Counted from the first letter of the stretch, positions 37,264 to 64,000 are shown. The stretch is 64,000 nucleotides of DNA from Caldifarciminota bacterium (GCA_026986775.1 JALSNX010000030.1:1-64000); one strand, 5' to 3'. Notes: generated by a model from the sequence alone, not told the origin. Numbers and translations: made by a program.

Positions 37264-37296
37264 TTAACCGTTCAAACAGGAAAGAGGGAGGTGAAT

Positions 37297-38556: not shown

Positions 38557-38562
38557 AATTTC

Positions 38563-41838: not shown

Positions 41839-43323
41839 ATGAGAATAGTTGTGGTTGATGATGACAAAAAGATTTTAAAAGCATTTGAAAAAGTGTGTAA
41901 AAACTATGGAGAGATTGAGATAAACACATTTGACGACCCGCATAAATTCTTAAGCAGCACTTCAGGTTCCTATGATATTTATGTTATAGATTATGTATTT
42001 GATACTACCTCAGATGACGGCATAACGGTAATAAAGAATCTACTGAATAAAAGTGAAGTGAGCAATGCGATAATATATCTTGTTACCAGATATCCAGATG
42101 AGGTGAGTGTTGAGAGATTTAACCTTCTTGCCCAGAGGGATGACGTCAAAAAAAATCTTGTGAAATTGCTGCTTCATGAGAAATCAGTTGAAGACCGTGA
42201 AAAATTTGCAGAGGAATTCATAGCAACAGTAGTGGATGTGTATAACAATTTAAACTTTACTCATAAGCAGCATATTCTTACATTATACGAAAAAAACGGT
42301 TATTGCTTTATATCTTCTGATATAATTGATAGAGTTTTTGCTCTTGAAAGAAAGTTTGAAGAGTGGAGAAAATCAGAAAAAACAGATGTTGTAGTAATAT
42401 ATGGTGAGATGGGAGTGGGTAAGACGTTTCTCTCAGATACCTTTGTAAAGGTCCATAAGAGGGATATAAAGGGTAATGTGAAGCAAGTGGATAGTGGAAC
42501 AATCAATGAAAGCACCGGACTGTCACAACTTCTGGGATATGTTAAAGGGGCCTTTACAGGAGCAGATAAAGACACTGAAGGTTATATTTCCAGTAACACA
42601 GATATTCTTATATTGGACAATTTTCAATATTTTCCATTACAACTTCAACGTGCTTTTCTGGTAGTAATTGATAGTGGATTATATACTCCTCTTGGCAGTA
42701 ATAAACATGAAGTATTTAAAGGTTTTATAATTCTTTTAACAAATAGACATCCTGATGAAATGTTAAAGAAAGGAACCATAATTCCAGACCTTTATGATAG
42801 AATAAAGTCCAGTATAATAGAATTGCCAGAGGAATTGAAGGATTCAGATACCGTGAATTTTATAAAACGTCAATTACAGAATAAGGGGAAAAAATATAGT
42901 GATGAAGCAATATCGTATGTTGTGAAAAACATACATAGAACACCAAGAAATGTAATGCACCTGATAGAAATACTTGAAAGTATGAAAATTACTCAACTTG
43001 ATATCCTTAATGCACGGTATGTATTACAACAAAATGAGAGGCTCACTCAAAAAGTCCTGTCTAATAACATTTCTAATAATGACAGCTCTTTTAAAACATT
43101 TCCTGGGGAACTATCCAGAGCACTCAGTTATTTCATGAATTCGTTATCTTTAGAAATAAAAGATTTTGACCAATTAAAAAAGGCATTTGTGTTTTATTTA
43201 AAATATATTGAAAAATATGAGACCAATGCTGATATAAGCAAAGTAAGCGGCATTTCACCTGCTCAAATAAGCCGTTATCTCAAAGACGAAAAATTCAAAG
43301 GATTATTTAAAAAAATCCAGTGA
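41839..43323 (+). CDS. Sigma-54-dependent response regulator (NtrC family)
   Basis: A 494-aa enhancer-binding protein. An N-terminal receiver domain has the acidic pair Asp7/Asp8 and the phosphoacceptor Asp51 (YVIDYVF). A linker of about 60 residues leads to a AAA+ domain with Walker A GEMGVGKT (189-196) and an intact GAFTGA loop (237-242), the part that contacts sigma-54. A helix-turn-helix ends the protein (TNADISKVSGISPAQISRYL, about 464-483). It is followed after 3 nt by a sensor-like gene and then a histidine kinase. Three sigma-54 promoters lie 5-7 kb downstream and are its likely targets. Confidence 0.9.
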   Translation: MRIVVVDDDKKILKAFEKVCKNYGEIEINTFDDPHKFLSSTSGSYDIYVIDYVFDTTSDDGITVIKNLLNKSEVSNAIIYLVTRYPDEVSVERFNLLAQRDDVKKNLVKLLLHEKSVEDREKFAEEFIATVVDVYNNLNFTHKQHILTLYEKNGYCFISSDIIDRVFALERKFEEWRKSEKTDVVVIYGEMGVGKTFLSDTFVKVHKRDIKGNVKQVDSGTINESTGLSQLLGYVKGAFTGADKDTEGYISSNTDILILDNFQYFPLQLQRAFLVVIDSGLYTPLGSNKHEVFKGFIILLTNRHPDEMLKKGTIIPDLYDRIKSSIIELPEELKDSDTVNFIKRQLQNKGKKYSDEAISYVVKNIHRTPRNVMHLIEILESMKITQLDILNARYVLQQNERLTQKVLSNNISNNDSSFKTFPGELSRALSYFMNSLSLEIKDFDQLKKAFVFYLKYIEKYETNADISKVSGISPAQISRYLKDEKFKGLFKKIQ

Positions 43324-47269: not shown

Positions 47270-47291
47270 AATTTCAAATTTCAAAATGAAA
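47259..47291. promoter_or_regulatory. Palindrome pair 1, candidate enhancer for the sigma-54 regulator
   Basis: TTTCATTATGAAA (47259-47271) and TTTCAAAATGAAA (47279-47291) both fit the inverted repeat TTTCA-N3-TGAAA and have centres 20 bp apart. The same two palindromes in the same order occur at 48954-48987. The pair lies in a convergent gap, overlapping the stop codon of the 46913 gene, about 360 bp downstream of the 46885 promoter. Confidence 0.6.
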
Positions 47292-47296
47292 CACAT

Positions 47297-48379
47297 TTAC
47301 CATAGATGGTGAAGTGGTATTCTGTACCATTTTATTCCTCTGTCTTTTTTAAAGTAAGTATCCGCGTATTTCGGATCTTCAACTATACTAAACGGATTCT
47401 TTTTTCCAGCATTTCTGGATGCAGAATGTTGTATTGCATCTACCAATGCATCAGAAATATATTTATCTATACTGATACCGAGCATAAGCCAGACTTTGCT
47501 GTTTCCAAATGTATTAAAGAAGAAGTGATTTTCGTTATAAAATCTATTAAGATACTTATATAAACCTTGTTCTACAATATCGTTTTCAGGGTCAAGTATG
47601 TATCCGACATTACCTATTTTTGCCCATACAACAGCATGCCTTTTACGCAGTTTGCCTTTATTATTTTCCTGTGCAAGGAATATAATGCGATTTTCTATAT
47701 TAAGGATATCAAGGAGTGAAGATAAAAATATACTCCTTTCAAAACACGCAGGATAAGGGATTTCAAATATAGTGGTTGAAGTTGCAATATGTCTGTAAAA
47801 TTTATCGTTTTTGTTGATTTCGCGTATTTCCTTTACAGCGTGAGGGGTAATAAGGTCAAGAATAATGGAGCCAAAACTCAAGTCCAGTTCAATCTCATGC
47901 ACCTTCTTAGTTAGAAATTTCACTATACTGAGTGTATCACCCCAGTTTACACCTTCCTCTCTCTGGTTTTTAAGTTTTTTCAGGAAGTTCTCCGCTTTTT
48001 GTCTATCTTTTGCTTCATAAAATTTGAAAATGAGGTTAGGTTGGGCACCATTATCAGATGGCACTATGATGGAATCCTTTGCAGAGGACATTATCAGTTT
48101 TTCCACACGCTCTTTTTCTTTTTCCCATGCCTTTTTTACACTATTTTTATCCATTTTTCCCTTAACAAGGTCTATAAGTGGACATAAATAAATTTCAGGT
48201 GTCAGAAAACCTGAAGGAAGTGCGAGCAAATACTTCAATTCACCTGCAAGATTTAGATCTATAGTCAGAAGAATAATAAAAGTTATAAGTTTCAGAATCC
48301 GTAATAGCAGCCTGATAATACTCAAAATCAGCCCGACAATCTTTTTAAAAATTACAACCGGAATACTTATGACTTTCAC
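47297..48379 (-). CDS. Membrane-anchored transglutaminase-like protein
   Basis: The 360-aa protein has an N-terminal hydrophobic region (about residues 5-42, probably one or two helices). The C-terminal half holds a Cys-His-Asp set in transglutaminase-like order and spacing: Cys212 at the head of a helix (YPACFERSIFLSSLLDIL), His248 (RHAVVWAKIG) and Asp263 (YILDPEND). That fold includes cysteine peptidases and peptidoglycan or protein cross-linkers. This is my inference from pattern; no close family is recognised. It lies 3 nt after the 48383 gene in an operon driven by a sigma-54 promoter. Confidence 0.6.
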   Translation of the reverse strand: MKVISIPVVIFKKIVGLILSIIRLLLRILKLITFIILLTIDLNLAGELKYLLALPSGFLTPEIYLCPLIDLVKGKMDKNSVKKAWEKEKERVEKLIMSSAKDSIIVPSDNGAQPNLIFKFYEAKDRQKAENFLKKLKNQREEGVNWGDTLSIVKFLTKKVHEIELDLSFGSIILDLITPHAVKEIREINKNDKFYRHIATSTTIFEIPYPACFERSIFLSSLLDILNIENRIIFLAQENNKGKLRKRHAVVWAKIGNVGYILDPENDIVEQGLYKYLNRFYNENHFFFNTFGNSKVWLMLGISIDKYISDALVDAIQHSASRNAGKKNPFSIVEDPKYADTYFKKDRGIKWYRIPLHHLW

Positions 48380-49129: not shown

Positions 49130-51784
49130 ATGATGATGAAATTAAAGTTGAGTACGGGTATTTTGGCTATAATCATACTTTTCATGTCTATACTATCATG
49201 CAAAAAAACGGATTTGGAAGATATTGATGAGATTATTGATTCAAATTACATAACATCTTCCATTATTACAGCCGGCCTTAAAGAGAGTATCCCAATTGTC
49301 TGGCATGCACCCAAGGTAGATAATGTAACCTATCGGGTGCAGATAGATAGTTTAAATACATTTTCCCATCCTTTTATAGATACCACTTTGTCAGATACGG
49401 TATTTATCTGGCGACTTGGTGAGATAAGAAGCGGAGTATTTTATACAAGGCTTTTCGTTAATTATGAAAAAAGAGGCTTAACTGTGCCTGTGGATTCAGT
49501 AATTAAGATTGTAATAAAAAACAGCCCTCCCTCCCTGAAGAATCTTCAGGACACAGTTCCAAGATACTATCCTGTAACTCTTATCATTAAAAGCGAATAT
49601 CCAGTTGATTCCTATAGAGTGAGGATAATACGTTATCTTAAAGGTAAGAAGTACATGGGAAGTTTTTTGAAAGTGGCAACTCCCCTGAAATTGACAGGTA
49701 AATTCGTTTATCTGGACACAATCATACATAAAGATACCTTGCAATTTATTCCCAGGTACTCAGGTATGTATTTTATAAATGTTTCTGCTATCAATGATTT
49801 TGAAAGTCCTTTCAGTGATACCTACAGGATTTATGTTGAGGGTGTGATTCCTTTGCCAGTATATCCCTCTGGTGGAGAAAATATAGACGGGGATTCCTTT
49901 ACAAAAACCGTTGAGTTTATTTTCAGCCATCCAGGCAGAATGAATACTTTATTTGTAAGCAAGGATAGAGAGTTTAATTATGTTATTGATTCTTCTGTAA
50001 TAGAAGATAGTGTGTTTAACTGGGAAGTTAAGGAAGGTGGGAAACTTTATTGGAGGGTATGTGCAGATGGATGTGGTCCTGTGGATTCATTTGTTCTTGA
50101 TGGGGGCGTGCCGATTTTTACCACGCCATCATCGGATTCTCTGGAGCTTGGTTTTGAAGACAGTGTTAGTTTCAGTTGGTCTCAGGTAGATGGAGCATCT
50201 TATTATAGGATTCAAATAGCAACAGACTATAACTTTTTATCTATTATTGAGGATACGCAGGTAACAAAAGATAACTTTGTCTGGAACTTACCTTATAGCT
50301 CCAAGGGAATGAAGATTTACGCAAGAATCAGGGCATCAAATGGTGTGTATAATTCTCCATGGACCAGTCCTGTAGTTGTTGTTTTTAATGGATCATCACC
50401 CACAATAATTTATCCTGCTCAAGATGATGAATTTATTTTTCCTGAAAGTATAAGGGTTAAATGGAATGAAGTTAACGGTGCCACAATGTATGAGGTATTT
50501 TTAAGGGACAGTATGGATAATACCATATATTCATATACCACAGAATCTACAGAACTGAACATTCCATGGGAATATGGTGAAGGTAGATACTCTGTTGTGG
50601 TCAGAGCTCAGAATGAGCACTATATGGGACCAAATTCACAGAAAGTGTATTTCAATGTTATCTATCCTGCACCATCATGGATACTCCCCTCTGATACCCT
50701 TATACAGGGCTTTCCTGAGAACATTGAATTTCAATGGACAGGTGTAAATAACGCTACTTATGTAATAGAGGTTTCTCCATATATGGATTTTCATGATGGT
50801 ATTATTGATACGGTTTTAGATGAGAATTACAGGTGGTCTATAACTTTTGGACCCTATGTATTTTCCCGGTTAAAGGCATGTAGAGGCGGATTTTGCAGTG
50901 CTTTCTCTACTATTAAGAAAGTAATTCTCAGCGGTGATATTCCTGTCATAAATCCCTTAAGCGATACAATTGGATTTGTGGATTCAATGTATGTTTCATG
51001 GACTTCTGTTAAGGGAGATAGAAATTATGCCCTTCAGGTCTCACGCACGCCGTTTTTCTCAGATATTTACTTTGAAGATACCCTTCATAATATCACATCC
51101 TCGTATATACCGATAGATGCACCTGGCTCATACTATGTGAGGGTAAAAGCATCAAATGGCATTTTCTGGGGGGCGTGGAGTCAGAAGGATAGTTTTAGAG
51201 CGGTTCCCCCCAGGGCATATCTTATCTCACCTCAAAATGACACATTTGTGGGATTCTTTACACAGATTGAACTTATATGGCACAGTATTAAAGGAACTGT
51301 AAATTATGAACTTGAAGTTTCAGATGTGCCGGATTTTAGCAGTTTAGCTGATGATATTCATGTGATGGATACGGTGTATTTATGGAATCTTCCTGACAAA
51401 GGAACATTTTACTTCAGGGTAAAGCCTGCTGGAAGGAACTATGAAGGGTATTACAGCGATGTGCGCTCATTTACTGTAAGACCGCCTGCTCCATTGATAA
51501 CGAGCCCTTACAACAATTCCTCATATGCTGTAGGAGATAATATAAATATTACATGGACCCGAATAAGTGGAGCAACTCAATACACAGGGCATATTACCAC
51601 TGAAAGTGGCTGTGGTGGCATTATAATCAGCACATTCACCACGCAGGATACAGCATATATTTTCTCACCTTCCTATGAAGGTGATTTTTATATATGCGTT
51701 AAAGGTGAAAACAGTGTATACAGTGGTCCGTTTTCTGCTCCAGTTCATTTCCATGTTTTCACCAAAAAAGGAGGTAAAAAATAA
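49130..51784 (+). CDS. Large lipoprotein of about nine Fn3-like repeats
   Basis: The 884-aa protein has a signal peptide and lipobox (SILSC, near residue 24). The mature part is a chain of about nine domains of 85-95 residues. Each has the Fn3-like pattern of a Pro-rich edge, a 'W..V.GA..Y.I' strand and a closing '.Y.RV.A.N......S..' strand. There is no enzyme motif, so a structural or ligand-binding surface protein is likely. AAGGAGG selects ATG 49130; a TTG at 49082 lies before the promoter. It is the first gene of the sigma-54 operon. The next gene starts in a TAATG overlap. Confidence 0.8.
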   Translation: MMMKLKLSTGILAIIILFMSILSCKKTDLEDIDEIIDSNYITSSIITAGLKESIPIVWHAPKVDNVTYRVQIDSLNTFSHPFIDTTLSDTVFIWRLGEIRSGVFYTRLFVNYEKRGLTVPVDSVIKIVIKNSPPSLKNLQDTVPRYYPVTLIIKSEYPVDSYRVRIIRYLKGKKYMGSFLKVATPLKLTGKFVYLDTIIHKDTLQFIPRYSGMYFINVSAINDFESPFSDTYRIYVEGVIPLPVYPSGGENIDGDSFTKTVEFIFSHPGRMNTLFVSKDREFNYVIDSSVIEDSVFNWEVKEGGKLYWRVCADGCGPVDSFVLDGGVPIFTTPSSDSLELGFEDSVSFSWSQVDGASYYRIQIATDYNFLSIIEDTQVTKDNFVWNLPYSSKGMKIYARIRASNGVYNSPWTSPVVVVFNGSSPTIIYPAQDDEFIFPESIRVKWNEVNGATMYEVFLRDSMDNTIYSYTTESTELNIPWEYGEGRYSVVVRAQNEHYMGPNSQKVYFNVIYPAPSWILPSDTLIQGFPENIEFQWTGVNNATYVIEVSPYMDFHDGIIDTVLDENYRWSITFGPYVFSRLKACRGGFCSAFSTIKKVILSGDIPVINPLSDTIGFVDSMYVSWTSVKGDRNYALQVSRTPFFSDIYFEDTLHNITSSYIPIDAPGSYYVRVKASNGIFWGAWSQKDSFRAVPPRAYLISPQNDTFVGFFTQIELIWHSIKGTVNYELEVSDVPDFSSLADDIHVMDTVYLWNLPDKGTFYFRVKPAGRNYEGYYSDVRSFTVRPPAPLITSPYNNSSYAVGDNINITWTRISGATQYTGHITTESGCGGIIISTFTTQDTAYIFSPSYEGDFYICVKGENSVYSGPFSAPVHFHVFTKKGGKK

Positions 51785-52842
51785 TGGGAAATTTATTGAA
51801 AATACTGATTTCATTTACCTTCTCCCTGAATCACAGGATATTATTGAACAGTAAGTGGTCTTTCTGGGATGTAGCCCACAATGCGATTGGACTATCTATA
51901 AATTTTCCAGAATCCTACTTCACCCTCTTCTATGGGTATATGGGTATAAAACCCGGTATTTCTTTTGAGTATGCCAGTTCAACCTATAGAAGGGTTCGGC
52001 CTTTAAACCTCGTTTTAAAAGAAAGTGTCGTTTCCATATCTCCCATGCTGACTTCCTATCTAATTCTAAAAAGAGTTGATTTAGGCGTTACTGGCAGGGT
52101 GTCTTTAGATGTGCTTCCAGAATTTAGATATGAAGAGGCATCTTTTGGTCCTTTTATCCGATACAGATTCAGTAAACCCGTAATGAAAATGCTTGGAGGT
52201 ATATATACAGGGCTTCTTTTTACGGGTAATTCTTACAGCAATCTTAAATTTGACGCTACTTTCCTGTGGGGAATTGACCTTGCTATGATACTCAGGGGGA
52301 GTAAAAAAGAATCTGAGAGGGTGGAAAAACACGAAATAGCAGAGAGTAAAAAGGAGAAGGTGGACTACAGGATAATACCATCGTATTTAAAAGGCAATGA
52401 GAAAAGACTGTTTCTTGACAGGTTAAGGGCAATATACGGAAAAGACACAGTGGTGTTTTACATATCAGGCAGAAAAGACATTTCACTTCCTTATGAAACG
52501 GATAAAGGAAGATTATATAAGGTTCTTCTTGATTATTACTCCTTTTCAGATGACTCACTTACTGTGCCCGCTCTGGATACCATTATTCAGATAGACACAT
52601 CTTACAGGTGGATAAAAACAGACATCGGGAAGTTAAGGATAACAACGGAAGATATTTTCTCCCGGGACTCTGTAAAAATAGATTTCGTCCTTTATAAACC
52701 TGTGAAAAGAAAGGATAAAATTGAAATTAAAGGGAAAAATATAACGGTTACCTTCAAAAGACACACCAGAGTTATTGAAAAGAACAGCAGAATAAATCTC
52801 AGGTTAAGAAAAATATACATTAAAAAAGGAGGTATTCGGTAA
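51784..52842 (+). CDS. Predicted outer-membrane-type protein, unknown function
   Basis: A 352-aa protein with a weak N-terminal hydrophobic segment (LLKILISFTFSL). About 160 residues of amphipathic strands rich in aromatic residues follow (AIGLSINFPESYFTLFYGYMG and similar), suggesting a barrel. A charged linker (SKKESERVEKHEIAESKKEK) leads to a C-terminal soluble beta-rich domain. No family is recognised. It overlaps its neighbours by 1 nt at each end, with GGAGG sites, so it is translationally coupled to the lipoprotein and the next membrane protein. Confidence 0.6.
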   Translation: MGNLLKILISFTFSLNHRILLNSKWSFWDVAHNAIGLSINFPESYFTLFYGYMGIKPGISFEYASSTYRRVRPLNLVLKESVVSISPMLTSYLILKRVDLGVTGRVSLDVLPEFRYEEASFGPFIRYRFSKPVMKMLGGIYTGLLFTGNSYSNLKFDATFLWGIDLAMILRGSKKESERVEKHEIAESKKEKVDYRIIPSYLKGNEKRLFLDRLRAIYGKDTVVFYISGRKDISLPYETDKGRLYKVLLDYYSFSDDSLTVPALDTIIQIDTSYRWIKTDIGKLRITTEDIFSRDSVKIDFVLYKPVKRKDKIEIKGKNITVTFKRHTRVIEKNSRINLRLRKIYIKKGGIR

Positions 52843-53216
52843 TGCTTTCGTATATCACAGAGAGCACTACAGGTATTGTGGGTGCGCTCCTTGTTGGTGC
52901 TGGTATTATAGTGCACATGGTAATGTTTTTCAGGAGGGCAGACGCACCCAAGGCAATGGTTCTTATGGTGTTAGAAATCTTACCTTTCATTATAGGAATA
53001 TTTGCAGAAAAACCCATTATAATGCTGTTTTCCGCCGGTATCATTCAGGGTGTTATATCCTTCTGGCCAATATTTTCAACAATCAGTTTTCAGAAGTTCT
53101 TCAACATCGTGTTCTATTCCTTTAAAGACCGCAGAGGATTTATTCTTGTTTCGCTCTTTCTGGCAACAGCACCCATTTTAATTGGAACGGTTCTCATGTA
53201 TATGGCAATGTATTAA
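52842..53216 (+). CDS. Small membrane protein with about four helices
   Basis: A 124-aa protein with hydrophobic segments at about residues 10-30, 41-58, 60-82 and 101-122 and a short basic loop (FYSFKDRRG). No signature is recognised. The arrangement (two pairs of helices, small size) is that of an inner-membrane scaffold or MotA/ExbB-like partner, but no family residues support the latter. AAAGGAGG precedes the start, which overlaps the previous stop (TAATG). Confidence 0.65.
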   Translation: MLSYITESTTGIVGALLVGAGIIVHMVMFFRRADAPKAMVLMVLEILPFIIGIFAEKPIIMLFSAGIIQGVISFWPIFSTISFQKFFNIVFYSFKDRRGFILVSLFLATAPILIGTVLMYMAMY

Positions 53217-53226
53217 GGAGGGAAAA

Positions 53227-53985
53227 ATGACTTTTGTGAAATGCAGTAATTGTGGTGCCGAAATACCCTCTGGAGGGCTTTTCTGCCCATTATGTGGTAA
53301 AGATTTTGAAAGTTTTGAGTTTTTGGATGGAACATCTTTTGAAGATACAGTGGTCCTCTCACACACTACGAGGAGTTACCGTGGTTGCTGTCAGGATGCT
53401 CGGGGTGCCGGGTTTGGTAATCTTGCGGGTCTTGGAGCAGGCCTTCCATCCCTTAAACTTTACGGATACGAATTTTATGTAGATGGTGGTAATGTGTATA
53501 GAAAAATAGAGGGCACCGGGACAGGAACTTTGCTAAATTCAGGACTTACCAGTGTTTCTTACATAGTAATAGCACCTGCATACCTTTACATGTTTGGGAC
53601 AAGTGGTGGAGCCTCTGCCATAACGAGATTGCCCCTTGTTCCGCTACTTAATGGAGAAATACCATCTGCACCGGGTATAATTGGGACTCTTCCTGCTCCC
53701 ACTCTGGGAGTAAATACAGTTCCTCAGATTACAAAATTCAATGGTGAATACTACATCGTTTATGTGAGCGGTGGAAATCTCATACTCCTTAAAAACCGTG
53801 ACCTGAGCACCACAGGTTATACTTTACCAGCGGGATTTGCTTCTTTCTGTGCATCTCCTGAAAACGGAGTTTATGTAAGAACAGCTGGAGGATACCAGAA
53901 ACTTGATTTTGGCAGTGGTGAGTTTGTGGTTAATGCTCCATCTGCGTGTGATGGCGCAAGGGCAATTAGAAATTTTTTACTGTAA
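53227..53985 (+). CDS. Zinc-ribbon protein with beta-rich (propeller-like) domain
   Basis: The 252-aa protein starts with a four-Cys zinc ribbon (Cys6, Cys9, Cys20, Cys23: CSNCG...CPLCG). After a linker, a Gly-rich beta domain with repeated strands follows (YEFYVDGGNVYRKI, SYIVIAPAYLYMFG, YYIVYVSGGNLILLKN, GVYVRTAGGYQKLDF), perhaps part of a propeller. No signal peptide is present, so it is cytosolic. ATG 53227 is chosen because AAGGAGGG precedes it. The same kind of zinc ribbon opens the actin/Hsp70-like protein four genes on. Confidence 0.65.
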   Translation: MTFVKCSNCGAEIPSGGLFCPLCGKDFESFEFLDGTSFEDTVVLSHTTRSYRGCCQDARGAGFGNLAGLGAGLPSLKLYGYEFYVDGGNVYRKIEGTGTGTLLNSGLTSVSYIVIAPAYLYMFGTSGGASAITRLPLVPLLNGEIPSAPGIIGTLPAPTLGVNTVPQITKFNGEYYIVYVSGGNLILLKNRDLSTTGYTLPAGFASFCASPENGVYVRTAGGYQKLDFGSGEFVVNAPSACDGARAIRNFLL

Positions 53986-53999
53986 GGGGGTGATTTAAC

Positions 54000-56018
54000 A
54001 TGGCACATCTTATTGGCATTGGAAGTTCAGGTGCAAGGGTTGTAGAACTTGCCACATTTTTGTTAAAAAGCACAGGGAGCTTAGGAAATCTTCAATCTGT
54101 GCATATCTTTGAGACAAACGAGAGTGTTAGAGAGGATGTAAGAAGCAGGATTCAATCTTACGGGGTGGCGAATGTCAAAGCTCCAAACCTTACATTTAAT
54201 CCTAATAATTTTGGCAGATACACAGGTGGTATTACCACAACAACAGCAGGTGCTGGAAATAGAAGGGCCATAGGATATGCTGTTTTTCAGCAAAATCAGG
54301 GTAATATTACAGGTGGATTTAGAGGATTCGGTGCTGGTGATAGGGTAATTGTGGTTGGAACAGGTGCAGGTGGGACAGCATCAGGCATGCTTCCTCCCGT
54401 TGTTAACGAAATTAAGGGAAGAGGTGTGGGTTCTATTTTTACCATATTCCTTCTTCCGTCAACAAAAATAAGTTCTGCCATAAGGAAGGCAAACGCCTTA
54501 ATAACCTTAAGGGATATGGAGGCTGTAATGGAAGGCCATGTCCTTATACTCATGATGCCGGTAAAAACCACAGGGGGAGACAAAGGGGGAGACTGGATAC
54601 TTGATGGCGGTGGTGCAAATGTTGACCTTGAGTCCTTAAATTACCGTGCCTTAATTGAAAGTGCAGGTATTGTCGCTTACGAAGCAGTAAGTGCCACTGC
54701 CATAGCTGCTGGTGTTTATTATCCTGAAATTTCCAGTTACAGCATAACACTTACCCAGTTTGCAAGTGAGAAAAAAGGCTACGAAGTCCTGAAAAAATCC
54801 CTTGAAGATATTTTAAAAGACTACACAGACAGAGTATATTACGGCACAGAGCACAAAGAACTTGAAGAGGAGGTTGAGAGGCTGGAGAATGAGGTGAGTG
54901 TAAATGATATTGAGGAACTGAACAATATAAATGAAAAGGCATTGACAGTGGTCAAAAACTTTCTTGGTAGAGTGAGGGAAACACAGGCTGAAAGTTATAT
55001 ACCCTATTTGAGAAAACTCTTTGATGAAAACGAATCCTTTATGAAGAGCCTGGATTCCTACAGTGAGAAAATTGCACTGGCTGACAGATATAAGGTTGAT
55101 GCTGTTTTGCGTGATTATTACAAGATTATTGCAGACAACAATAAAAGATACAGGGAGTGCAACCTCCAGCTCGTCTATCATAAGGTTATTGAGATACTCA
55201 GGAAAAATCAACTTGAGAATCTAAAGGATGATTTTGAAAATGCCCTTTTGTCTGTAAAACCAGTAACACCCTTTGAACTTGTTGAGGCAGGAAAGTTAGA
55301 TTTTGTAACCTTCGTAATACCTGTTGCCGGGGTGCAGAGTAGTGTATCCGATTTGCGTAGTAGGATTATAGAAAACTCCGAAAATATCCTTTTCAATCCT
55401 GAAAGGAGCAAAAGAATTAAGGCCATTGAAAGTGTATTCAGTAACTTTATAGGAAACCATGCAAACGGTGGTAATGGTGGAAATAACGGAAACAATAACA
55501 ATGCCGGTGCTGGTGGAGGAGCCGGCGGTGGAGGTGCAGTAAATAATGCAGTGTTTCTGGAAATAGAGGCAGGTGGTATAGGTGGTAATACTAAATTTGG
55601 AAACATAACTCTTCACCAAATAACAAACACAAAGCACATAGGACTGTTTAACGACCAAAGAGTTCTTTCGGAAATCGTCTCTCCCTCAACATACAACCTA
55701 CTAAGGTATCCGGAATACCCGTTTCTCAATGACCGTTTTAAAAATGAGTTATGGAATTATTTTGGTAATAAAGGGGCTGTAAGTGTAAAAGGGGGCGTAA
55801 AAACACTCAATGTAAATACCCTTTTAGGAAATGATATAGAACTTCTACCATCCTATCCTGAAGTTGTGGGAAATATTAAATACTTACCCCTTAAGGATGT
55901 GCCTGACATTGAAATAGCCATACAGTATCCAGACGGGACTAATGTCTCAGACCTTGTGAGAGTAAGCACCCATGAGGTTCTTTTGTGGAAGTGGGGTAAA
56001 GATAAGCGCATATTTTAG
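54000..56018 (+). CDS. Tubulin/FtsZ-like GTPase-type protein, active-looking member
   Basis: The 672-aa protein begins with a Rossmann-like Gly loop (LIGIGSSGARVVE, Gly6-Gly11). It has a tubulin-type G-box at 120-129 (VVGTGAGGTASGMLPPV), comparable to GGGTG(S/T)G in tubulin and FtsZ. An acidic coiled-coil segment (about 283-310) and a Gly/Asn-rich low-complexity linker (about 488-518) interrupt the rest. It is much longer than FtsZ and is not the division protein; it belongs with the divergent tubulin-like families of bacteria. GTP binding is likely, polymerisation is unproven. AAGGGGG precedes the ATG. Confidence 0.75.
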   Translation: MAHLIGIGSSGARVVELATFLLKSTGSLGNLQSVHIFETNESVREDVRSRIQSYGVANVKAPNLTFNPNNFGRYTGGITTTTAGAGNRRAIGYAVFQQNQGNITGGFRGFGAGDRVIVVGTGAGGTASGMLPPVVNEIKGRGVGSIFTIFLLPSTKISSAIRKANALITLRDMEAVMEGHVLILMMPVKTTGGDKGGDWILDGGGANVDLESLNYRALIESAGIVAYEAVSATAIAAGVYYPEISSYSITLTQFASEKKGYEVLKKSLEDILKDYTDRVYYGTEHKELEEEVERLENEVSVNDIEELNNINEKALTVVKNFLGRVRETQAESYIPYLRKLFDENESFMKSLDSYSEKIALADRYKVDAVLRDYYKIIADNNKRYRECNLQLVYHKVIEILRKNQLENLKDDFENALLSVKPVTPFELVEAGKLDFVTFVIPVAGVQSSVSDLRSRIIENSENILFNPERSKRIKAIESVFSNFIGNHANGGNGGNNGNNNNAGAGGGAGGGGAVNNAVFLEIEAGGIGGNTKFGNITLHQITNTKHIGLFNDQRVLSEIVSPSTYNLLRYPEYPFLNDRFKNELWNYFGNKGAVSVKGGVKTLNVNTLLGNDIELLPSYPEVVGNIKYLPLKDVPDIEIAIQYPDGTNVSDLVRVSTHEVLLWKWGKDKRIF

Positions 56019-56028
56019 GAGGTGAAGA

Positions 56029-58092
56029 ATGTTAAGACCAACCATGTTTGTGGGAGTTGGAGAGTTTGGTGACCTTGTTTTAAAGAACCTTGCCCTTCAG
56101 GCATTTATCACAACAGGCTCACCAGACCTTTATGGCATCTTTAAGTATCTTGTTGTGCATCGAGCAGGATATGCCATTCAAAACCCTGTGAACAGTCTCT
56201 TTGGCGGGATTGTGAAATACATAAATGCCAATGTGGCTGATGAAGCAGATAGAACCGTAGTAAATGTTCAGGGAGCAATGGCAAATATCGGAACAGCAAT
56301 TGATAATGAAAGAACACAATTTATTGCCTTTGCAGGTGATCAGACTCAAAGGGAGGATGCAGCACGGAGGCTTTCAGATAATATTGGTCTTACAGAGCCC
56401 CTTGATGTGGCACAGGAGCCTGAGTATTTTATTGTTGGAGATGCATCTTCTGGTTTTTCCTCTGCCCTTTTACCTGCCATTGCAGAAAAGTTTACCCTTC
56501 CCTACGGGATGATACACATTCAAAATGACGATAACTCAAGTGGATTCATGTATGAGTTCTTCACGCAGATGGCACTTAAGGGAACGCCCCGTTTCAATGC
56601 AATATATGTAATAGATTCGTCCCGGATTTCGGGAGCACCTGCACCTTCTGATATTGCCACATATTTCACAGTTGCGAGGTTCCTCTACCTTATACAGACT
56701 GTCCTTGATGTTCCTGCGAAACTGGTGGATGTTGATTCGGACTTTGGAAAGGGCAATGTTCTTGCCTTTTCCTTTGGCGGCGCCCTCTCCATGGCAAAGG
56801 AAAAAAGTTTTGTTGAAAGCGCAGAGGGTTTTATAAAAGCACTTGATGAGTATCTTATATGGGATAATGACCATGACAATAAATGTGACCACACTGATGT
56901 TGAAAAGGAGATAGACACAGAATTTATGGACCCCCTTGTAAGACGGTATCTATTTGATGGGTGGGAAAATCTAAGTGGAAATGATATAAGTGGCAAAGTA
57001 AACCATTTTATTAAAAACATATTTAATCCTGAACTTAAGTATCACATGGCACACAACAGAACAGGAAAACTCTACGGTCCAAAATACGCCCTCTGTGTAA
57101 TTAAAAAGATTGGTAAATATAAACAAGAACTGTGGGACAGTGTTCAGGATGCAAAATACAAATTGGCAAGGCTCAATACCTTTACGGATAATATCAGTAA
57201 AAAGAGGTGGGAGGAATGGAATAAAGGGTTAAAAAATGTAAAAAATGCAGTTAATAGTCTGAAACATGATATAGAAAATCTGGCAGGGGGACTCAGTGTG
57301 TGGAATAGTGATGGATTGAATACTGATCAAAATAATAATAATAATATTGATGCGAAAGAAAGATACACGCTGATGGCAATAAACCGAAATTCAGATAGCA
57401 TATTCGTTGACAATGCCCTTAAGATTAAGCCCATTGCAGAGGAGATACTGTATGAGAGAACTGATTGCATTGTAAGCAAGAAGGCAATACCACAAAATAA
57501 TCTTAAAAAGATATTTTTGGACAATGTGGGGGGTGGAGGCACTGATATAATGAGTTTCAATGACGAAAGCCGGGCCTCAACTGACCATCTTGCATCTAAA
57601 ATCACGAAGGACGCGAAGAATTTTTACGAAAAGGTTTTTGGTTGCGATAAGTATTATCTCAAACTCGTTACAGGATTTGGCTATATGGACATAAATTTTA
57701 ATAAGAGACCTGGAAATAGCATACAGAGTTATGTCTCCGGGGGGGGTGAAAAAACATTTCTCCTTATGAGGTTTATAAGAAATGTTCTCGGCTCATATCA
57801 CCTCGTATTTTCCTCCGATGGAAAAAGGTTTTTAATTGAAAATGACCCTGTTTTTAATAATCAAGTAAAGAGCGTGGACGATCTGTTTGCGGGGACTTAT
57901 TATGCTATCATAAGAGGTTGGGGTGGTATTCATAATGCCTCTCCTGTAACAAGAAATATCCTCATTGAAAATCTCACAGTTCCTCCCGGAAGATTAAACT
58001 ACTTTGCCGTAAAGATGCTTGAATTTTTCGGGTTTAAGAATGTGCCTGTTAACAAAGATACGATTTACGAGTTTATAAACAAATTTGTTTAA
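56029..58092 (+). CDS. Second tubulin/FtsZ-like protein, degenerate G-box
   Basis: The 687-aa protein has the same overall plan and length as the previous gene. It begins with MFVGVGEFGDLVLKNL (Gly loop at 9-14) and has IVGDASSGFSSALLPAI at 135-151, the position of the G-box; three of the G-box glycines are replaced. A helical, charged central part and a short Asn repeat (about 431-438) follow. It looks like a duplicated partner that has lost or changed nucleotide binding, perhaps forming a heterodimer with the first. AGGAGG precedes the ATG, 10 nt after the previous stop. Confidence 0.65.
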   Translation: MLRPTMFVGVGEFGDLVLKNLALQAFITTGSPDLYGIFKYLVVHRAGYAIQNPVNSLFGGIVKYINANVADEADRTVVNVQGAMANIGTAIDNERTQFIAFAGDQTQREDAARRLSDNIGLTEPLDVAQEPEYFIVGDASSGFSSALLPAIAEKFTLPYGMIHIQNDDNSSGFMYEFFTQMALKGTPRFNAIYVIDSSRISGAPAPSDIATYFTVARFLYLIQTVLDVPAKLVDVDSDFGKGNVLAFSFGGALSMAKEKSFVESAEGFIKALDEYLIWDNDHDNKCDHTDVEKEIDTEFMDPLVRRYLFDGWENLSGNDISGKVNHFIKNIFNPELKYHMAHNRTGKLYGPKYALCVIKKIGKYKQELWDSVQDAKYKLARLNTFTDNISKKRWEEWNKGLKNVKNAVNSLKHDIENLAGGLSVWNSDGLNTDQNNNNNIDAKERYTLMAINRNSDSIFVDNALKIKPIAEEILYERTDCIVSKKAIPQNNLKKIFLDNVGGGGTDIMSFNDESRASTDHLASKITKDAKNFYEKVFGCDKYYLKLVTGFGYMDINFNKRPGNSIQSYVSGGGEKTFLLMRFIRNVLGSYHLVFSSDGKRFLIENDPVFNNQVKSVDDLFAGTYYAIIRGWGGIHNASPVTRNILIENLTVPPGRLNYFAVKMLEFFGFKNVPVNKDTIYEFINKFV

Positions 58093-58113
58093 AATGAATG
58101 GGAGGTGATTCTT

Positions 58114-60345
58114 ATGCAGTGTTCTGTATGTGGAAATTCTGTTCCCTTTGATTTCAGGTTCTGCCCCTATTGCGGGAATAAACTGTATGAACTTGGGCTC
58201 TCTTTAAATCCCGCTACCACTGTGGCAGGAAGAAATGTAAGGAATCTTGTTCTTGACATACACTCCCACGGCATTACGGTGGATAGTTGTGAATTGATGT
58301 TGCCGGACAGAAATGTGGAAGGTGCAATAAATGGAGGGACCGTAACATGGGCAGGGGTCGGTATTGCTGTGGGAAATTCTTATAATATCAGGGTGAAGTA
58401 TTCCAGGATTATAGGCCGGGTGAATGGGCGAAACATCACGGTTACCTTTGAAGAAGAACTCCAAATAGAAATTCCTGCTGGTGGTGTTACCTTGAAGAAT
58501 GCATACGAAATTGATAATATGCTCTATGTCCAGCTTGATGCCTATAACATCACCAATGTTTCCCTTGCAGGACAAAACTGCCAAAGAGTAGATAACAGTA
58601 ACTGGTGGAGTTGTCCCATAGACAACCAGAATGTAAATCACATTTCTTTAAGTGTCAATACCGACAATGGCATGGTGATTATAAGACCTGCAAACATTAA
58701 GCAACTTCCTGACTTTGATGTTTACCCTGTAAAGGGAATAAGACTTCAACAAGACGGGATTACCATGCCAGAGAGCATGAAGGTTAAACTCCATATCAGG
58801 TTTCCTGTAAATTTGAACAGTGCACCTTTACCTTCAGTGCAAAATGACACACTGCTTTATCAAGAAGCGAACAATCATATAGATGGGAACATGGATGTTA
58901 TTTCAGAGGAAAATGACATAGAGTTGTCTCAATCTCTGGATAATACCTTCAGGGTAAAAAGAAAAGTCGTTTCTGTAAATAGTGTAAATGGTAGGGGTGG
59001 TGAAGCCTACATTGCCATTGACTTTGGAAATACCCGCTCAACAATGGGTGTGTTTATCCATGGTGATGGTGGAGGAGCCATTCACAAACCAACGATAAAC
59101 GGGGCAGATTACATTATGGAGTCCCGTGCGTATAATAGTGCGCCTTCATGCACAGGAAACTGCAACAATAAGGATAGATATATGTTTTCCTACTACTATC
59201 ACTTTGACCAGCCTGTAGTATTAACAGGCGTGAAAAACCGGATAATGCACCAGATTGCACAGAAGCATGGCAATAATTTAAAATCCTATGCAGTCAGAAT
59301 AATTTCAGAACTGCTCTTTACCGGTTTGTATCTTATCTACAATAATGGGAGAATAGGCACAGACATTTTTCAGAACCTTAAAGGAATAGTCCTTTCATAC
59401 CCTCCAACATGGCCAGAAGATTATCAAAAAGAACTTAAAAGTATTGTTCGGGATGCGTTTTCTGCTGTGTTGAAAGGAAATTTACCTGATAATATTGAGT
59501 TTGATTTTGTCCATGAATCCTTTGCTCCTCTTATGTGGGCTCTTAGAGGTGGCGCAGGTGGCCATGATGCAGCCCTTGTAGTTGACTTTGGAGGTGGAAC
59601 AACGGATGTGGCATTCTATGACCTTAAAGGTGCCGCTGCCACTCTTTATGCCTTTGCCTCTGGTAAAGCAGGTGGTGATAATCTGGATGTGTATCTTGCA
59701 CGAAATTTTCTGGGAAATGATAACATAGAAAGTATCTTCAATATCAGGAAGGAAAAAGAACAGAATAACGGTTTTCCACAAAAGGGTCAGGGTGTTTTTG
59801 ACGGAAATTATGGTGATGTAAATCAGGAAGTAAAAAGCATTATAGAAAATATCACGGAAGTCCTTTTAAATCAGATAAAGATGGCACTGGACAATCAGAA
59901 ATACAAATACGATGATAAAAGCGTGCTGCTCGTTCTTGCAGGTGGACTTTCAAGGATGCGACACCCTGATGTGAAAAGCATTGTAGAAAATAAAGTTAGA
60001 AGTGTCTTTGGGGTTAAAAATGTCGGAGTGAGTGTCGTTGGCAAGATGGGGACTGTTCAGGGAATGCTCAGATGGAAGGGGGCAGGCGGTGGTGCAATGA
60101 ATAAAGTGGATGGTATTGCCTATTACAATTATATAACCCTTGGTGCAGGTGGAGCCAATATAAGTTATGTAAAGAAGAAAGGTGAAGGATTTACGGGTCA
60201 ATGTGAAGAAAACTGGAAAAAGATTATAGATGACCTTCTCTATTATCCTCAGGGTCCGGTCCCTCAAATTGTAATAGATGTTGTAGGAAGTGTATTCGTG
60301 CCTAATGGAGGAATTTTTGTACCCATAGGGTTTATTGATTGCTAA
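58114..60345 (+). CDS. Zinc-ribbon protein with actin/Hsp70-type ATPase domain
   Basis: The 743-aa protein has an N-terminal zinc ribbon (Cys3, Cys6, Cys17, Cys20), a beta-rich middle (about 30-290) and a C-terminal actin-fold ATPase. Phosphate-1 is YIAIDFGNTRSTMGVF (from about 299), phosphate-2 is LVVDFGGGTTDVAFYDL (about 487-503) and the adenosine motif is LVLAGGLSRM (about 605-614). No substrate-binding domain follows, so it is not a DnaK. ATG 58114 is preceded by GGAGG at 8 nt; a GTG at 58105 overlaps that site. It probably powers or regulates the tubulin-like pair upstream. Confidence 0.85.
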   Translation: MQCSVCGNSVPFDFRFCPYCGNKLYELGLSLNPATTVAGRNVRNLVLDIHSHGITVDSCELMLPDRNVEGAINGGTVTWAGVGIAVGNSYNIRVKYSRIIGRVNGRNITVTFEEELQIEIPAGGVTLKNAYEIDNMLYVQLDAYNITNVSLAGQNCQRVDNSNWWSCPIDNQNVNHISLSVNTDNGMVIIRPANIKQLPDFDVYPVKGIRLQQDGITMPESMKVKLHIRFPVNLNSAPLPSVQNDTLLYQEANNHIDGNMDVISEENDIELSQSLDNTFRVKRKVVSVNSVNGRGGEAYIAIDFGNTRSTMGVFIHGDGGGAIHKPTINGADYIMESRAYNSAPSCTGNCNNKDRYMFSYYYHFDQPVVLTGVKNRIMHQIAQKHGNNLKSYAVRIISELLFTGLYLIYNNGRIGTDIFQNLKGIVLSYPPTWPEDYQKELKSIVRDAFSAVLKGNLPDNIEFDFVHESFAPLMWALRGGAGGHDAALVVDFGGGTTDVAFYDLKGAAATLYAFASGKAGGDNLDVYLARNFLGNDNIESIFNIRKEKEQNNGFPQKGQGVFDGNYGDVNQEVKSIIENITEVLLNQIKMALDNQKYKYDDKSVLLVLAGGLSRMRHPDVKSIVENKVRSVFGVKNVGVSVVGKMGTVQGMLRWKGAGGGAMNKVDGIAYYNYITLGAGGANISYVKKKGEGFTGQCEENWKKIIDDLLYYPQGPVPQIVIDVVGSVFVPNGGIFVPIGFIDC

Positions 60346-60356
60346 GGAGGAAATTC

Positions 60357-61310
60357 ATGCAGGTAGTAATTATAATGCTCAGTTTGTTTATGTTTAAGAA
60401 TCCAAAGAAAGTAAGTCCTCCTGCTGAGGGTATAAGGGATAGTGTTTTAGCAGAAACTCAGATTGTTAATGATACCATTGCGCATCATCATAATGGGGGT
60501 GAAGATAGGATAAACAGCACCTTTGAACTTTATACAGCAGTTGTTTTCTTCATCTTCCTTTTGCTTTTACTTGGCATTCTCTATCTTATGTTGAGAATAC
60601 ACTCAGAATTGCAGGGCACGAAGGACCTTTTTGAATCTTTTCTCAAAAGGATGGATATGAGAAAAAATGCTGATAATTTTGAAAGGAGAATGGCAGGATA
60701 TTTTGAGAGTGTTGAAAAGGAGATTCATGATATAAACCTTAAAGTTGATGACTTAAACAAAAACATTCTGGGAGTTTATAGAAGCGTTAGTGGACTTTCC
60801 TTAAAAGATGTTCTGGACATGCAGAGAAACACCCTGCAACTGGTTTCTGGAATTTTAAACAGAATGGAGGAAATCGTCAGGTATCAGAAACAGATAATCA
60901 CAAAGCATCTAAAGAGTGAGGGCAGGCCATCTTCCATTGAAAAAATTTACCCTGTTAGAAGGGAACCAGTTGTGAATCAAACCCACATTTCCACAGAAAG
61001 TAAAAGGGTCTCTGATGTTGATATTAAGAAAGAGGTTCAGAGATGGAAGGAACTTTCAGATAGCGACAAGGCAAAGGTTGAGAATATGGCTAAAAATCTT
61101 GGTTATTCACTCGTTGACCCCCTCAAAGAGAATAAGGTCTTTTTCGCAGACCTTACTGACGATGAGAAACACTATTTTAAGGTAGAAAGGGTAAGTGATG
61201 AGAGATATGCAGTTTATCCGAAAGGCAGGATAATTGAGGTGGTTATGCCTGCTGTTATTGATGGAAAAGGCCTTATAGTTCAGCAGGGCACTTTGAAGAT
61301 AAAGGATTAA
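60357..61310 (+). CDS. Membrane-anchored coiled-coil protein
   Basis: The 317-aa protein has a short hydrophobic N-terminus, a transmembrane helix at about 59-80, a coiled-coil region (about 85-200, with regular heptads in FESVEKEIHDINLKVDDLNK) and a small C-terminal alpha/beta domain. No family is recognised. With the coiled coil on the cytosolic side it could link the membrane to the filament-type proteins. AAGGAGG selects ATG 60357. Confidence 0.6.
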   Translation: MQVVIIMLSLFMFKNPKKVSPPAEGIRDSVLAETQIVNDTIAHHHNGGEDRINSTFELYTAVVFFIFLLLLLGILYLMLRIHSELQGTKDLFESFLKRMDMRKNADNFERRMAGYFESVEKEIHDINLKVDDLNKNILGVYRSVSGLSLKDVLDMQRNTLQLVSGILNRMEEIVRYQKQIITKHLKSEGRPSSIEKIYPVRREPVVNQTHISTESKRVSDVDIKKEVQRWKELSDSDKAKVENMAKNLGYSLVDPLKENKVFFADLTDDEKHYFKVERVSDERYAVYPKGRIIEVVMPAVIDGKGLIVQQGTLKIKD

Positions 61311-61323
61311 AAAGGAGGTTTTT

Positions 61324-63168
61324 ATGAAGCGATTGTTTAAACTCCTTGGCCTTCTGGGAGGATTATTGATGCTGTATGGTTGCCATGGTGCCTCTGCGCC
61401 TTATATTGATATATCCATAGATGTTCAGGGTGGAAACACAGTTCACATAAGCAGCTTTGCAGAAGACACTGTTATCTACATTGGTAAAATGTCTCCCACG
61501 AATATTGTATTTACAAATAACAGTAGAAAATTCAAATACGACCTTTATGTGAATGTGGATGGGCGAAATATTTATACCAAAAAAGATGTGACAATACCTG
61601 CTCAGGGTAGCAAAATGGTTGATATAACCAGTTCAGAATATGAAGATGGTAGTTTTCACGAAGTTATTGCAAAGTGGGAGGCACTTTACGGTAAGTATAA
61701 AGATGCAAAGGCATTTTATATTGTATGCGTGAGACCTGTTATTGAGGATGAGGATGGGAACAGAGTAGAGGGGCAGTATATATCACCCTTTAAAAATTAC
61801 AGAATACGCCTGAGTAATCAAGATATATGTAATGTTGAGCCAGATGAGATAAGTATAGAGAATAAAAGCGATGAGATAAAATATTCTGTTATTTGCAGGG
61901 GCAAAGAGAAAGAATTTTCACTGTATCCTTCCTACTCTATTGAAAGTATACTGCAGGATGGGAAGGATGTTAGCGCAGAGCATGAAGTTGAAAAAGGTAA
62001 AGAGGTTTACATAAACTTTAGTTTCAATCTTGAACCTGAGGGTGTGTATCTTATCCAGAATGATAAAAGAGAGAAACTTGTGCTCAGCGGAAGTAAAGTG
62101 TCCTTTATACCCAAAAAGTCCGGTAAAGCGTATATAGAAGTGTCTTACTCTCAGAAAGCACTTACCTCCAGGTTTGAATTGGAAGTGAAAAAAACATCAG
62201 CACCTCGTCCTTCGCCTGCAGCGCATGGACCCTCCCCACGTTTGTATTCACCGTTAAGGACTGATAAAGTGTATCTTTACGGCTACATATACCCTCACCC
62301 TGCTGTTATTGTGCCGGTTGGTGAGAACCTTACTATTTATAACCCAATCTCAACAAGGATGAATGTTTTCTTAAAGGGTAATAACGGTAAAATAAAAAGT
62401 TTTTCTCTGAATTCAAAAGATACAATAAATGTATCAACAGGTGAATTTGGAGATACAATTTATCTTTGGAGTATGAACATTTCAACCGATGTAAATACAT
62501 ATCTTCTAAAATACATGAGGGCAATAAGTTGTAGGTATTTTAAGAGTGTTTCCAGTAAAATTGAAGGAAGTTCGGGTAGAATAACACTGCCATCAATGGG
62601 AAAGGATGTTTTCTGGTCCTATGTAAGGGAGATTGAACAGGGTAAAAACGATGTATCCAGTTTTTCATTAACAGAAATCGCATCCTTGCTTTATGGCGTG
62701 CTCAGAGATAAAAATACCGGAGTAACTGATGATATGAAAGGTTGTGCATCTATGCTTTTAAGGAAACTACACAGAAAGATACTAAGATGGAAGGTTACAA
62801 TTGTTAATAATACAGGCGAAGATATCCGGGTAGTTATTCCTACTCTTTTTGAGAAAGGTGGACCTAAAACCTTGAAAAAGTATAGAAGATTGACCTTTTA
62901 CATGCAACTTACCCCATATACTGTTTACCTTTGTAAGTTTCATGACATCTCTGGCATGGGTTTGTATGGGGAATTAAATAGCACAAATATTCTCGGGTTT
63001 GAGACAAAAGGAGGAACACTTAGTATTTTCTTCCCTACAATGTGTGAACTTGGTGGAAGGTTAAGATACGAGGAAAAACTCAGGGATTACAGGATAAAAT
63101 TTAATTTTAGGCCATATTTACCTGCCCCTCAGGTTGTAATCAGTATAAGCAACAAGATAAGGAGGTGA
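61324..63168 (+). CDS. Lipoprotein of unknown function, 614 aa
   Basis: A lipoprotein with lipobox LMLYGC (Cys20). The mature part is beta-rich with Ig-like stretches (about 25-290), a Pro/Ala/Ser linker (about 290-305) and a second beta-rich half. AAAGGAGG precedes the ATG. No family is recognised. It lies between two membrane proteins in the operon, and like the 49130 lipoprotein it places part of the system in the outer envelope. Confidence 0.65.
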   Translation: MKRLFKLLGLLGGLLMLYGCHGASAPYIDISIDVQGGNTVHISSFAEDTVIYIGKMSPTNIVFTNNSRKFKYDLYVNVDGRNIYTKKDVTIPAQGSKMVDITSSEYEDGSFHEVIAKWEALYGKYKDAKAFYIVCVRPVIEDEDGNRVEGQYISPFKNYRIRLSNQDICNVEPDEISIENKSDEIKYSVICRGKEKEFSLYPSYSIESILQDGKDVSAEHEVEKGKEVYINFSFNLEPEGVYLIQNDKREKLVLSGSKVSFIPKKSGKAYIEVSYSQKALTSRFELEVKKTSAPRPSPAAHGPSPRLYSPLRTDKVYLYGYIYPHPAVIVPVGENLTIYNPISTRMNVFLKGNNGKIKSFSLNSKDTINVSTGEFGDTIYLWSMNISTDVNTYLLKYMRAISCRYFKSVSSKIEGSSGRITLPSMGKDVFWSYVREIEQGKNDVSSFSLTEIASLLYGVLRDKNTGVTDDMKGCASMLLRKLHRKILRWKVTIVNNTGEDIRVVIPTLFEKGGPKTLKKYRRLTFYMQLTPYTVYLCKFHDISGMGLYGELNSTNILGFETKGGTLSIFFPTMCELGGRLRYEEKLRDYRIKFNFRPYLPAPQVVISISNKIRR

Positions 63169-63171
63169 AAT

Positions 63172-64000
63172 ATGGATGAAAGAAGAGAAAAAAACAGAGA
63201 AAACCTTTATAATAAAAAATATGATAACAAAAAAGATAAATTTATTATTCCTGTCATGGGTGTAATTATTATACTCCTTGTGATTTGCTGTATCATTTGC
63301 TGCAACAAGGGGTGTAGTAGTCCCACAGTGGCTTTTTATGGGGTAAACTCCTTTCAGTATGTCAATCAAATAAGGTTCAGAAAATACAGAGATGGAGGTG
63401 AGAAAGTCTATGTGTTAAAGGAAAAGACTGAAATTACTCCAAACATGAACAGGTTACCCTATTATGAGAGGTGGATATACTTCTGGATGTATCCTGGAAT
63501 ATATTATGCAAGAAATAGTGAACTTGTTCCATTAAAGAGATGGATGAATGAAAGTGTTTTCCCCCGCGACTCCTTTATATTTTCACCTGAGTATTCTGTT
63601 GTGAATCCTTATGGCGTATCCAGGAGAGAGATTGAGGAGAAAGACAAAGAATGTAATAGTTGTATATTCAATGAATTTAATGCATTACCGAGTTCATATA
63701 AGACTTTCAGATTGTCTGACAGGAGAACTCCTCGTCCTCAGTGGGATGATTTAAAAAATTATCCCGCCTCTGCGCTTTCGCGAGCTTTTTTCAGTTTTTT
63801 AAGGTATAAACCTGTTGTGGATAAGGGTTTATACAAATATACAGGAAGTAACAGGTATAGTTTAAAGTTAAAGAGGATTAAAGATAAGTCGGTTACTTTT
63901 GCACTGCTGGATAAGGATTTTCCCTTAAAGAGGATCAGGTTCGCTCTTATCCAGAGGGATAGAATCAGTGTAAAGAAAGTCCCGCGGAATTACATTGCAA
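63172..64000 (+). CDS. Membrane protein cut by the window end
   Basis: An open frame runs from ATG 63172 (AGGAGGTG at 63160-63167) to the last base without a stop, giving at least 276 residues. An N-terminal basic, Asn/Lys-rich tail is followed by a transmembrane helix (FIIPVMGVIIILLVICCIIC, residues 24-43) with a cluster of Cys (CCIICCNKGC), then a mostly aromatic, charged extracytoplasmic part. No family is recognised. It continues the sigma-54 operon, 3 nt after the lipoprotein stop. Confidence 0.75.
   Translation, partial: MDERREKNRENLYNKKYDNKKDKFIIPVMGVIIILLVICCIICCNKGCSSPTVAFYGVNSFQYVNQIRFRKYRDGGEKVYVLKEKTEITPNMNRLPYYERWIYFWMYPGIYYARNSELVPLKRWMNESVFPRDSFIFSPEYSVVNPYGVSRREIEEKDKECNSCIFNEFNALPSSYKTFRLSDRRTPRPQWDDLKNYPASALSRAFFSFLRYKPVVDKGLYKYTGSNRYSLKLKRIKDKSVTFALLDKDFPLKRIRFALIQRDRISVKKVPRNYIA

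Follow-up and report, generated by a model that had tools for sequence, protein, structure and literature searches.

The genes between positions 49130 and 64000 raise the question of whether an operon that encodes tubulin-like proteins, an actin/Hsp70-like ATPase and envelope proteins together specifies a single machine and, if so, of which kind. The stretch of DNA analysed (64,000 nucleotides, here called the window) is part of a 2.18 Mb genome and has the same coordinates as its contig (C30:1-64000); genes without a name are designated below by their first position.

Gene content of the operon and its insertion site

A first, sequence-only reading of this DNA had described ten closely packed genes on the plus strand. 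All ten reading frames were present and open where they had been placed (49130-64000), with stop-to-start gaps of -1, -1, +10, +14, +10, +12, +11, +13 and +3 nt for genes 1-10 and an AGGAGG (Shine-Dalgarno) sequence upstream of most starts. The operon continues beyond the window to contig position 77343 and comprises approximately 18 genes, not ten (Table 1). Two of the proteins had been taken for lipoproteins, in agreement with the signals SILSC at 49130 and LYGC at 61324, which were judged by eye; the Pfam fn3 match of the 49130 protein (0.0028) was below the cut-off. The zinc ribbon assigned to 53227 was also upheld, with two CxxC pairs and a Pfam match below the curated cut-off. The description of 51784 as barrel-like found no support, with no family match returned by any search.

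Table 1. Genes of the operon and two genes to its left, in contig C30 coordinates.
Position	Strand	Feature	Basis
41839..43323	+	response regulator carrying an AAA domain of sigma-54 type; close to left end of insertion	Sigma54_activat 2e-26; Response_reg 1.9e-6
47297..48379	-	transglutaminase-like protein, Cys/His/Asp kept	blastp 2e-16 to 76552-77343
49130..51784	+	884-aa lipoprotein, FN3-like repeats; opens the operon	ORF; AGGAGG; lipobox by eye
51784..52842	+	352-aa protein	ORF
52842..53216	+	small membrane protein, approximately 4 TM segments	ORF; hydropathy
53227..53985	+	zinc-ribbon protein; remainder beta-rich, propeller-like (by eye)	Pfam Zn_Ribbon_1 3.7e-5
54000..56018	+	TubA, tubulin superfamily, FtsZl1/Tubulin_2 type, 672 aa	Pfam; hhalign
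56029..58092	+	TubB, probable degenerate tubulin	FtsZl1 profile, weak
58105..60345	+	zinc ribbon, beta-rich region and actin/Hsp70-type ATPase	Pfam; blastp
60357..61310	+	single-TM protein, coiled-coil-like stretch	hydropathy
61324..63168	+	lipoprotein, 614 aa	lipobox by eye; homologue L120:11-1996, E 2.7e-10
63172..64000 (full 63172-64977)	+	single-TM protein, 601 aa; N-terminal part in window	homologue L120:1999-3807, E 4.5e-86
64981-65493		170-aa protein	
65511-67190		559-aa multi-TM protein, large probable periplasmic loop	
67193-69280		TM segments and two ABC ATPase domains, one chain	Pfam 3.9e-15
69277-70104 and 70132-71604		lipoprotein-like proteins	
71570-75520		secreted vWA protein, 1316 aa	Pfam VWA 9.1e-11; C-terminal FlgD-like domain 1.2e-5
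75536-76534		operon gene	
76552-77343	+	transglutaminase-like protein; last operon gene	

The operon lies on an insertion of approximately 50 kb between genes that are adjacent in congeners. In one congener (G001), 8 bp lie between a leuC-type gene (here at window 37287-38558) and the valS region (here from contig 92028), and in another (G002) the homologue of a cyclase-like gene (38563-41790) directly precedes the valS region; these junctions place the insertion at approximately 41.8-92.0 kb, or 38.6-92.0 kb relative to G001. Its GC content is 0.367, compared to 0.40 in the flanks. No tRNA was found at the island borders in 36000-64000 and 82000-101999, and no integrase, transposase or recombinase among the island proteins scanned. 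Convergent to the operon is a minus-strand group (C30:77376-91958; L003, L006) encoding ankyrin proteins, a PP2C protein (2.8e-14), two Ser/Thr kinases (8e-27, with an N-terminal zinc-ribbon-like CxxC pair, and 5e-29, with a zinc ribbon), a CAP-domain protein, an FHA and trypsin-like membrane protein and a double-zinc-ribbon FHA protein.

Several sequences occur repeatedly on the island. The transglutaminase-like paralogues (47297-48379, minus strand, which had no match in Pfam, and 76552-77343, plus strand) flank the operon on both sides. Two ankyrin genes (C30:78877-79314 and 90384-91226) have a 139-bp stretch in common at 96% identity, indicating a recent duplication within the island, and a sequence of 33-36 bp recurs with 89-91% identity at 47256-47291, C30:88753-88785 and 91358-91393. 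Downstream of the island (L007:19-14285) are genes for two repeat-rich, probably secreted giant proteins of 2157 and 2516 aa.

The tubulin-like proteins and the zinc-ribbon ATPase

Two tubulin/FtsZ-like proteins had been proposed; the assignment held for the first, TubA, and is unproven for the second, TubB, which gave a weak profile signal and has lost the phosphate loop. By its sequence, TubA is a member of the tubulin superfamily, nearest to FtsZl1. It matched Pfam Tubulin (3.3e-6) and Tubulin_2 (0.0012), both below the curated cut-offs, and its closest match in the PDB was archaeal CetZ (3zid, 0.0016). With a profile built from 11 FtsZl1 sequences, hhalign gave TubA 94% (9.5e-8) over 102 columns, among them GAGxxRxxG of FtsZl1, the T4 loop (GAGGTASG in TubA) and ANA..L..mE; alignments to individual members agreed. 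The profile gives TubA the T1 and T4 loops of the FtsZl1 type, with Pfam Tubulin_2 matching only below its cut-off. In FtsZl1 proteins the tubulin domain is followed by a coiled coil and a helical C-terminal domain; residues 245-330 of TubA were helical in a low-confidence model. Close homologues were sought in 60 relatives, plasmids, phages and viral contigs, which yielded nothing useful, and two exact-pattern scans of GTDB contigs, which may miss distant relatives, gave no match. An ordinary FtsZ is also encoded in the same genome, and cell division is therefore an unlikely role for the operon.

TubB is probably a degenerate tubulin, judging from the FtsZl1 profile, where it reached E 0.028 and was the top non-tubulin among 266 proteins. 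The match consists of two collinear segments, corresponding to T1 and the S6 region, and as high a score was reached by none of 604 scored shuffles and by three of 1000 block shuffles. When TubA was added to the profile, TubB fell to E 0.82, behind several Rossmann-type proteins. A T1-like loop is kept, and the expected T4 site reads GDASSGFSSALL. Searches of Pfam, the PDB and PHROGs gave no match to TubB, and those of 147 phylum genomes and viral contigs gave two marginal ones (27-30% over at most 86 residues). Structure models made without an alignment had pLDDT values of 37 and 38, with the TubA positive control failing likewise; fold searches with these low-confidence models of TubB frequently returned FtsZ entries, all of them non-significant.

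The third nucleotidase proposed, a zinc-ribbon ATPase of the actin fold at 58105, was borne out by Pfam, if weakly for the actin/Hsp70 part, and more clearly through a relative in another genome of the same phylum (G124; L036:5144-7984). The zinc ribbon (1.1e-4, below the curated cut-off) has two CxxC pairs, the ATPase part matched MreB-like_C (0.0028) and HSP70 (0.041) weakly, and zinc ribbon, beta-rich region and actin/Hsp70 motifs follow one another in order. The G124 protein, the nearest relative found, has the same architecture and an HSP70 match of 1.1e-9; blastp aligned it to 58105 at 3.5e-5 over part of the ATPase domain only, a match that does not alone exclude other Hsp70 proteins. 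Other searches for 58105 homologues, in 147 phylum genomes, plasmids and viral contigs, returned zinc-ribbon stretches only. Two features of a classical Hsp70 chaperone were not found: Pfam matched no Hsp70 substrate-binding domain in 58105, and no GrpE-type exchange factor was recognised alongside. The C-terminal end of the 60357 protein had hinted at GrpE, an assignment rejected when the protein failed to match a 26-sequence GrpE profile.

Related loci and the envelope half of the operon

Matches to Tubulin_2 (PF13809) at E <= 0.01 were present in 21 of 147 phylum genomes, part of the weak ones being ordinary FtsZ, recognised beside FtsA- and Mur-type genes. A vWA-type MIDAS protein, identified by eye, is encoded directly before the tubulin in six of eight FtsZl1-type loci (L036-L043); that of L038, the one tested clearly, was confirmed by Pfam. 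Only L036, in G124, also has a zinc-ribbon Hsp70 (ZnR-Hsp70) gene. Its order is zinc-ribbon protein, vWA-type TM protein, tubulin, ZnR-Hsp70 and TM protein, with a kinase nearby; L036:13409-14758 is the positional counterpart of 53227, the two being without significant sequence similarity.

The 701-aa TM protein encoded right after the FtsZl1 gene at L038:10724-12829 scored as a further, degenerate tubulin when TubA was in the profile (E 0.0015), which parallels the TubA-TubB pair. Three plasmids of Thermaceae (Thermus, Allomeiothermus, Meiothermus) carry a cassette of genes for a vWA protein, an FtsZl1 tubulin, a 677-686-aa protein and brxL; such vWA-FtsZl1-brxL cassettes (L074:10404-18363, L075:10375-19467, L086:7306-15383) lie among helicase, methyltransferase or HEPN genes and are possibly tubulin-containing BREX-like defence modules. 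On an Azospirillum plasmid (L076:11950-23057), the FtsZl1 tubulin gene lies beside caspase-family, OmpA, PEGA and DUF4384 genes.

The envelope half of the operon was found again in G002, where contig C374 (L120, 7440 bp) has the genes in the same order (a lipoprotein, proteins of 602, 160 and 545 aa, and TM-ABC). It encodes homologues of 61324 and 63172 (Table 1), 65511 (2.7e-30) and 67193 (3.5e-65), and a 160-aa gene sits at the place of 64981. Judging from these matches, five of the envelope genes have diverged orthologues in G002, and sequence comparison verified four of them. The proteins are 27-36% identical to those encoded here, far below the 76-77% identity of the flanking leuC and valS DNA, and the operon was therefore exchanged or is evolving much faster. 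G002 is listed at 8% contamination, and contig C374 could be foreign. The first ABC domain of 67193-69280 is closest to the Opp-type ATPase Rv1281c (6.5e-9). The 601-aa protein as a binding protein and the 559-aa protein as a permease found no support.

The linkage of the genes, expected to be conserved in related genomes, was so in part: the core order recurs in G124 and the envelope order in G002, whereas neither of the tubulin-like proteins nor the ATPase had a detected homologue in three congeners, G002 included. L120 ends at both sides, breaking right at the border between core and envelope genes, and none of 20 further G002 contigs (13 of them masked) was positive for the tubulin core.

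Readings of the locus and comparison with described systems

We tentatively prefer to read the locus as a diverged FtsZl1 (Tubulin_2) variant, an NTP-driven, kinase-controlled and membrane-anchored assembly on a genomic island. This is suggested by the FtsZl1 likeness of TubA in Pfam and profile searches, by the core order in G124, with its vWA-type protein and nearby kinase, by the in-operon vWA protein and adjoining kinases and PP2C, which fit described FtsZl1 operons, and by the envelope gene order kept in G002 in spite of the low protein identity. Counting against it are the failure to detect TubA, TubB and the ATPase with the envelope half in G002, the Tubulin and Tubulin_2 scores of TubA, which fall short of the Pfam cut-offs, the distance of 15 kb between the vWA gene and TubA, and the lack of a DO-GTPase2 in the genome. 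In such an assembly, TubA would bind GTP via its T1 and T4 loops and polymerise or cluster on the cytosolic side of the cytoplasmic membrane, and TubB, its phosphate loop defective, may be a partner or cap that does not hydrolyse nucleotide. Loading or remodelling of this assembly could fall to the ATPase at 58105 and the zinc-ribbon beta protein at 53227, and the coiled-coil TM protein would link the assembly to the periplasmic lipoproteins and the Opp-like transporter. External sensing or adhesion might be the task of the secreted vWA protein together with the FN3 lipoprotein, and the kinase/PP2C/FHA cluster alongside might be the switch; the likely output would be local envelope remodelling or export.

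It is somewhat unlikely that the locus is instead a conflict (defence) system, in which the tubulin/Hsp70 core would be an NTP-dependent switch or effector assembling on infection, with the kinases and the vWA/FN3 proteins as sensors, and phage or rival would be limited by membrane damage or containment. Congeners lack the island at this site, its parts are patchy and fast-diverging, and FtsZl1 lies among defence-type genes in the Thermaceae cassettes (vWA-FtsZl1-677 aa-brxL) and beside caspase genes in Azospirillum; the make-up also has themes (tubulin, HSP70 and kinase/PP2C/vWA) in common with the conflict systems predicted in PMC7159879. However, the constant parts of those systems, as given there, are missing: searches of the genome returned no DO-GTPase2 (PF19993) over the cut-off, only short P-loop matches, and no match to GAP1-M (PF20014). 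PADLOC recognised no defence system within the operon and nothing but generic kinases alongside, and so many secreted, lipoprotein and transporter parts would be unusual for defence.

The break in the G002 contig bears on another reading, which we consider unlikely, that two unrelated modules adjoin, one cytosolic and of FtsZl1/Hsp70 make-up (53227-61310), the other an Opp-like ABC transporter plus its lipoproteins (61324-69280), and are co-transcribed without forming a joint machine. G002 shows the envelope half only, G124 has the core, with the transporter proteins unmatched in the loci read apart from generic kinases and ABC domains, and the first ABC domain has Rv1281c, of Opp type, as its closest match. 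Against this, the spacings at the border are just 11-13 nt with no gap, and since the G002 contig breaks at this very point, absence of the core there is indistinguishable from a missing or masked contig. Quite improbable, finally, is a trans-envelope machine of the sort that the sequence-only reading had inferred, in which a tubulin assembly of one active and one degenerate subunit would cooperate with an actin-fold ATPase, under kinase control, to power export or remodelling that reaches across both membranes.

Read as an FtsZl1 variant, the operon, together with the G124 locus, ties an FtsZl1-type tubulin to a zinc-ribbon Hsp70/actin ATPase, and it connects the tubulin/ATPase core with specific lipoproteins and with a transporter. 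The literature searched contained no experimental study of an FtsZl1 tubulin; the operon provides a concrete set of proteins for testing the old FtsZl1 prediction (remodelling, export or defence) by simple reconstitution.

The sequence-only reading knew of no described system of this make-up, a claim that does not hold in that form. In 2010, membrane-remodelling machines were predicted in which FtsZl1 occurs with vWA proteins, kinases and OmpA-type and membrane proteins (PMC2875224), and PMC7159879 reports two-tubulin, Hsp70, FNIII, zinc-ribbon, kinase/PP2C and vWA themes in the surroundings of DO-GTPases, calling the tubulin, HSP70 and kinase themes non-overlapping and predicting conflict systems. 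A tubulin and ZnR-Hsp70 operon without a DO-GTPase is absent from the main texts of both papers, and full-text literature searches gave no other account of one.

Like the Dpp/Opp-type peptide ABC transporters, the operon's transporter has two ABC ATPase domains and a multi-TM neighbour; it differs in that the TM part and both ATPases form one chain, and neither the 601-aa nor the 559-aa protein matched a known binding protein or permease. The G124 locus shares the core order of zinc-ribbon protein, FtsZl1 tubulin, ZnR-Hsp70 and TM protein, but has the vWA-type gene directly before a tubulin of 1087 aa and no second tubulin that could be seen, and only the ATPase pair was significant in sequence among five protein pairs compared. 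According to PMC7159879, two tubulins, Hsp70 without the peptide-binding domain, FNIII, zinc ribbons, a ZnR-kinase with PP2C, and vWA also occur in DO-GTPase/GAP1-N2 systems; there the tubulin, HSP70 and kinase themes are described as non-overlapping and depend on DO-GTPase and GAP1, whereas here they are found together and DO-GTPase2 and GAP1-M are lacking. With the FtsZl1/vWA systems of PMC2875224, the locus has in common an FtsZl1-like tubulin and a vWA protein, as well as Ser/Thr kinases and membrane proteins specific to the lineage, and the genome encodes an ordinary FtsZ besides. Kinases, a P-loop GTPase and an OmpA-type protein are frequent partners in those systems; among the island proteins scanned, kinases were present and Pfam matched neither a P-loop GTPase of the described kind nor an OmpA domain. 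In contrast to those systems, the tubulin here is far diverged and short, a probable second, degenerate tubulin-like gene, a zinc-ribbon Hsp70 ATPase and an Opp-like transporter are present, and the vWA gene, while in the same operon, is not adjacent to TubA. Tentatively, we place the locus as an atypical and highly diverged relative of the predicted, membrane-associated FtsZl1 tubulin systems.
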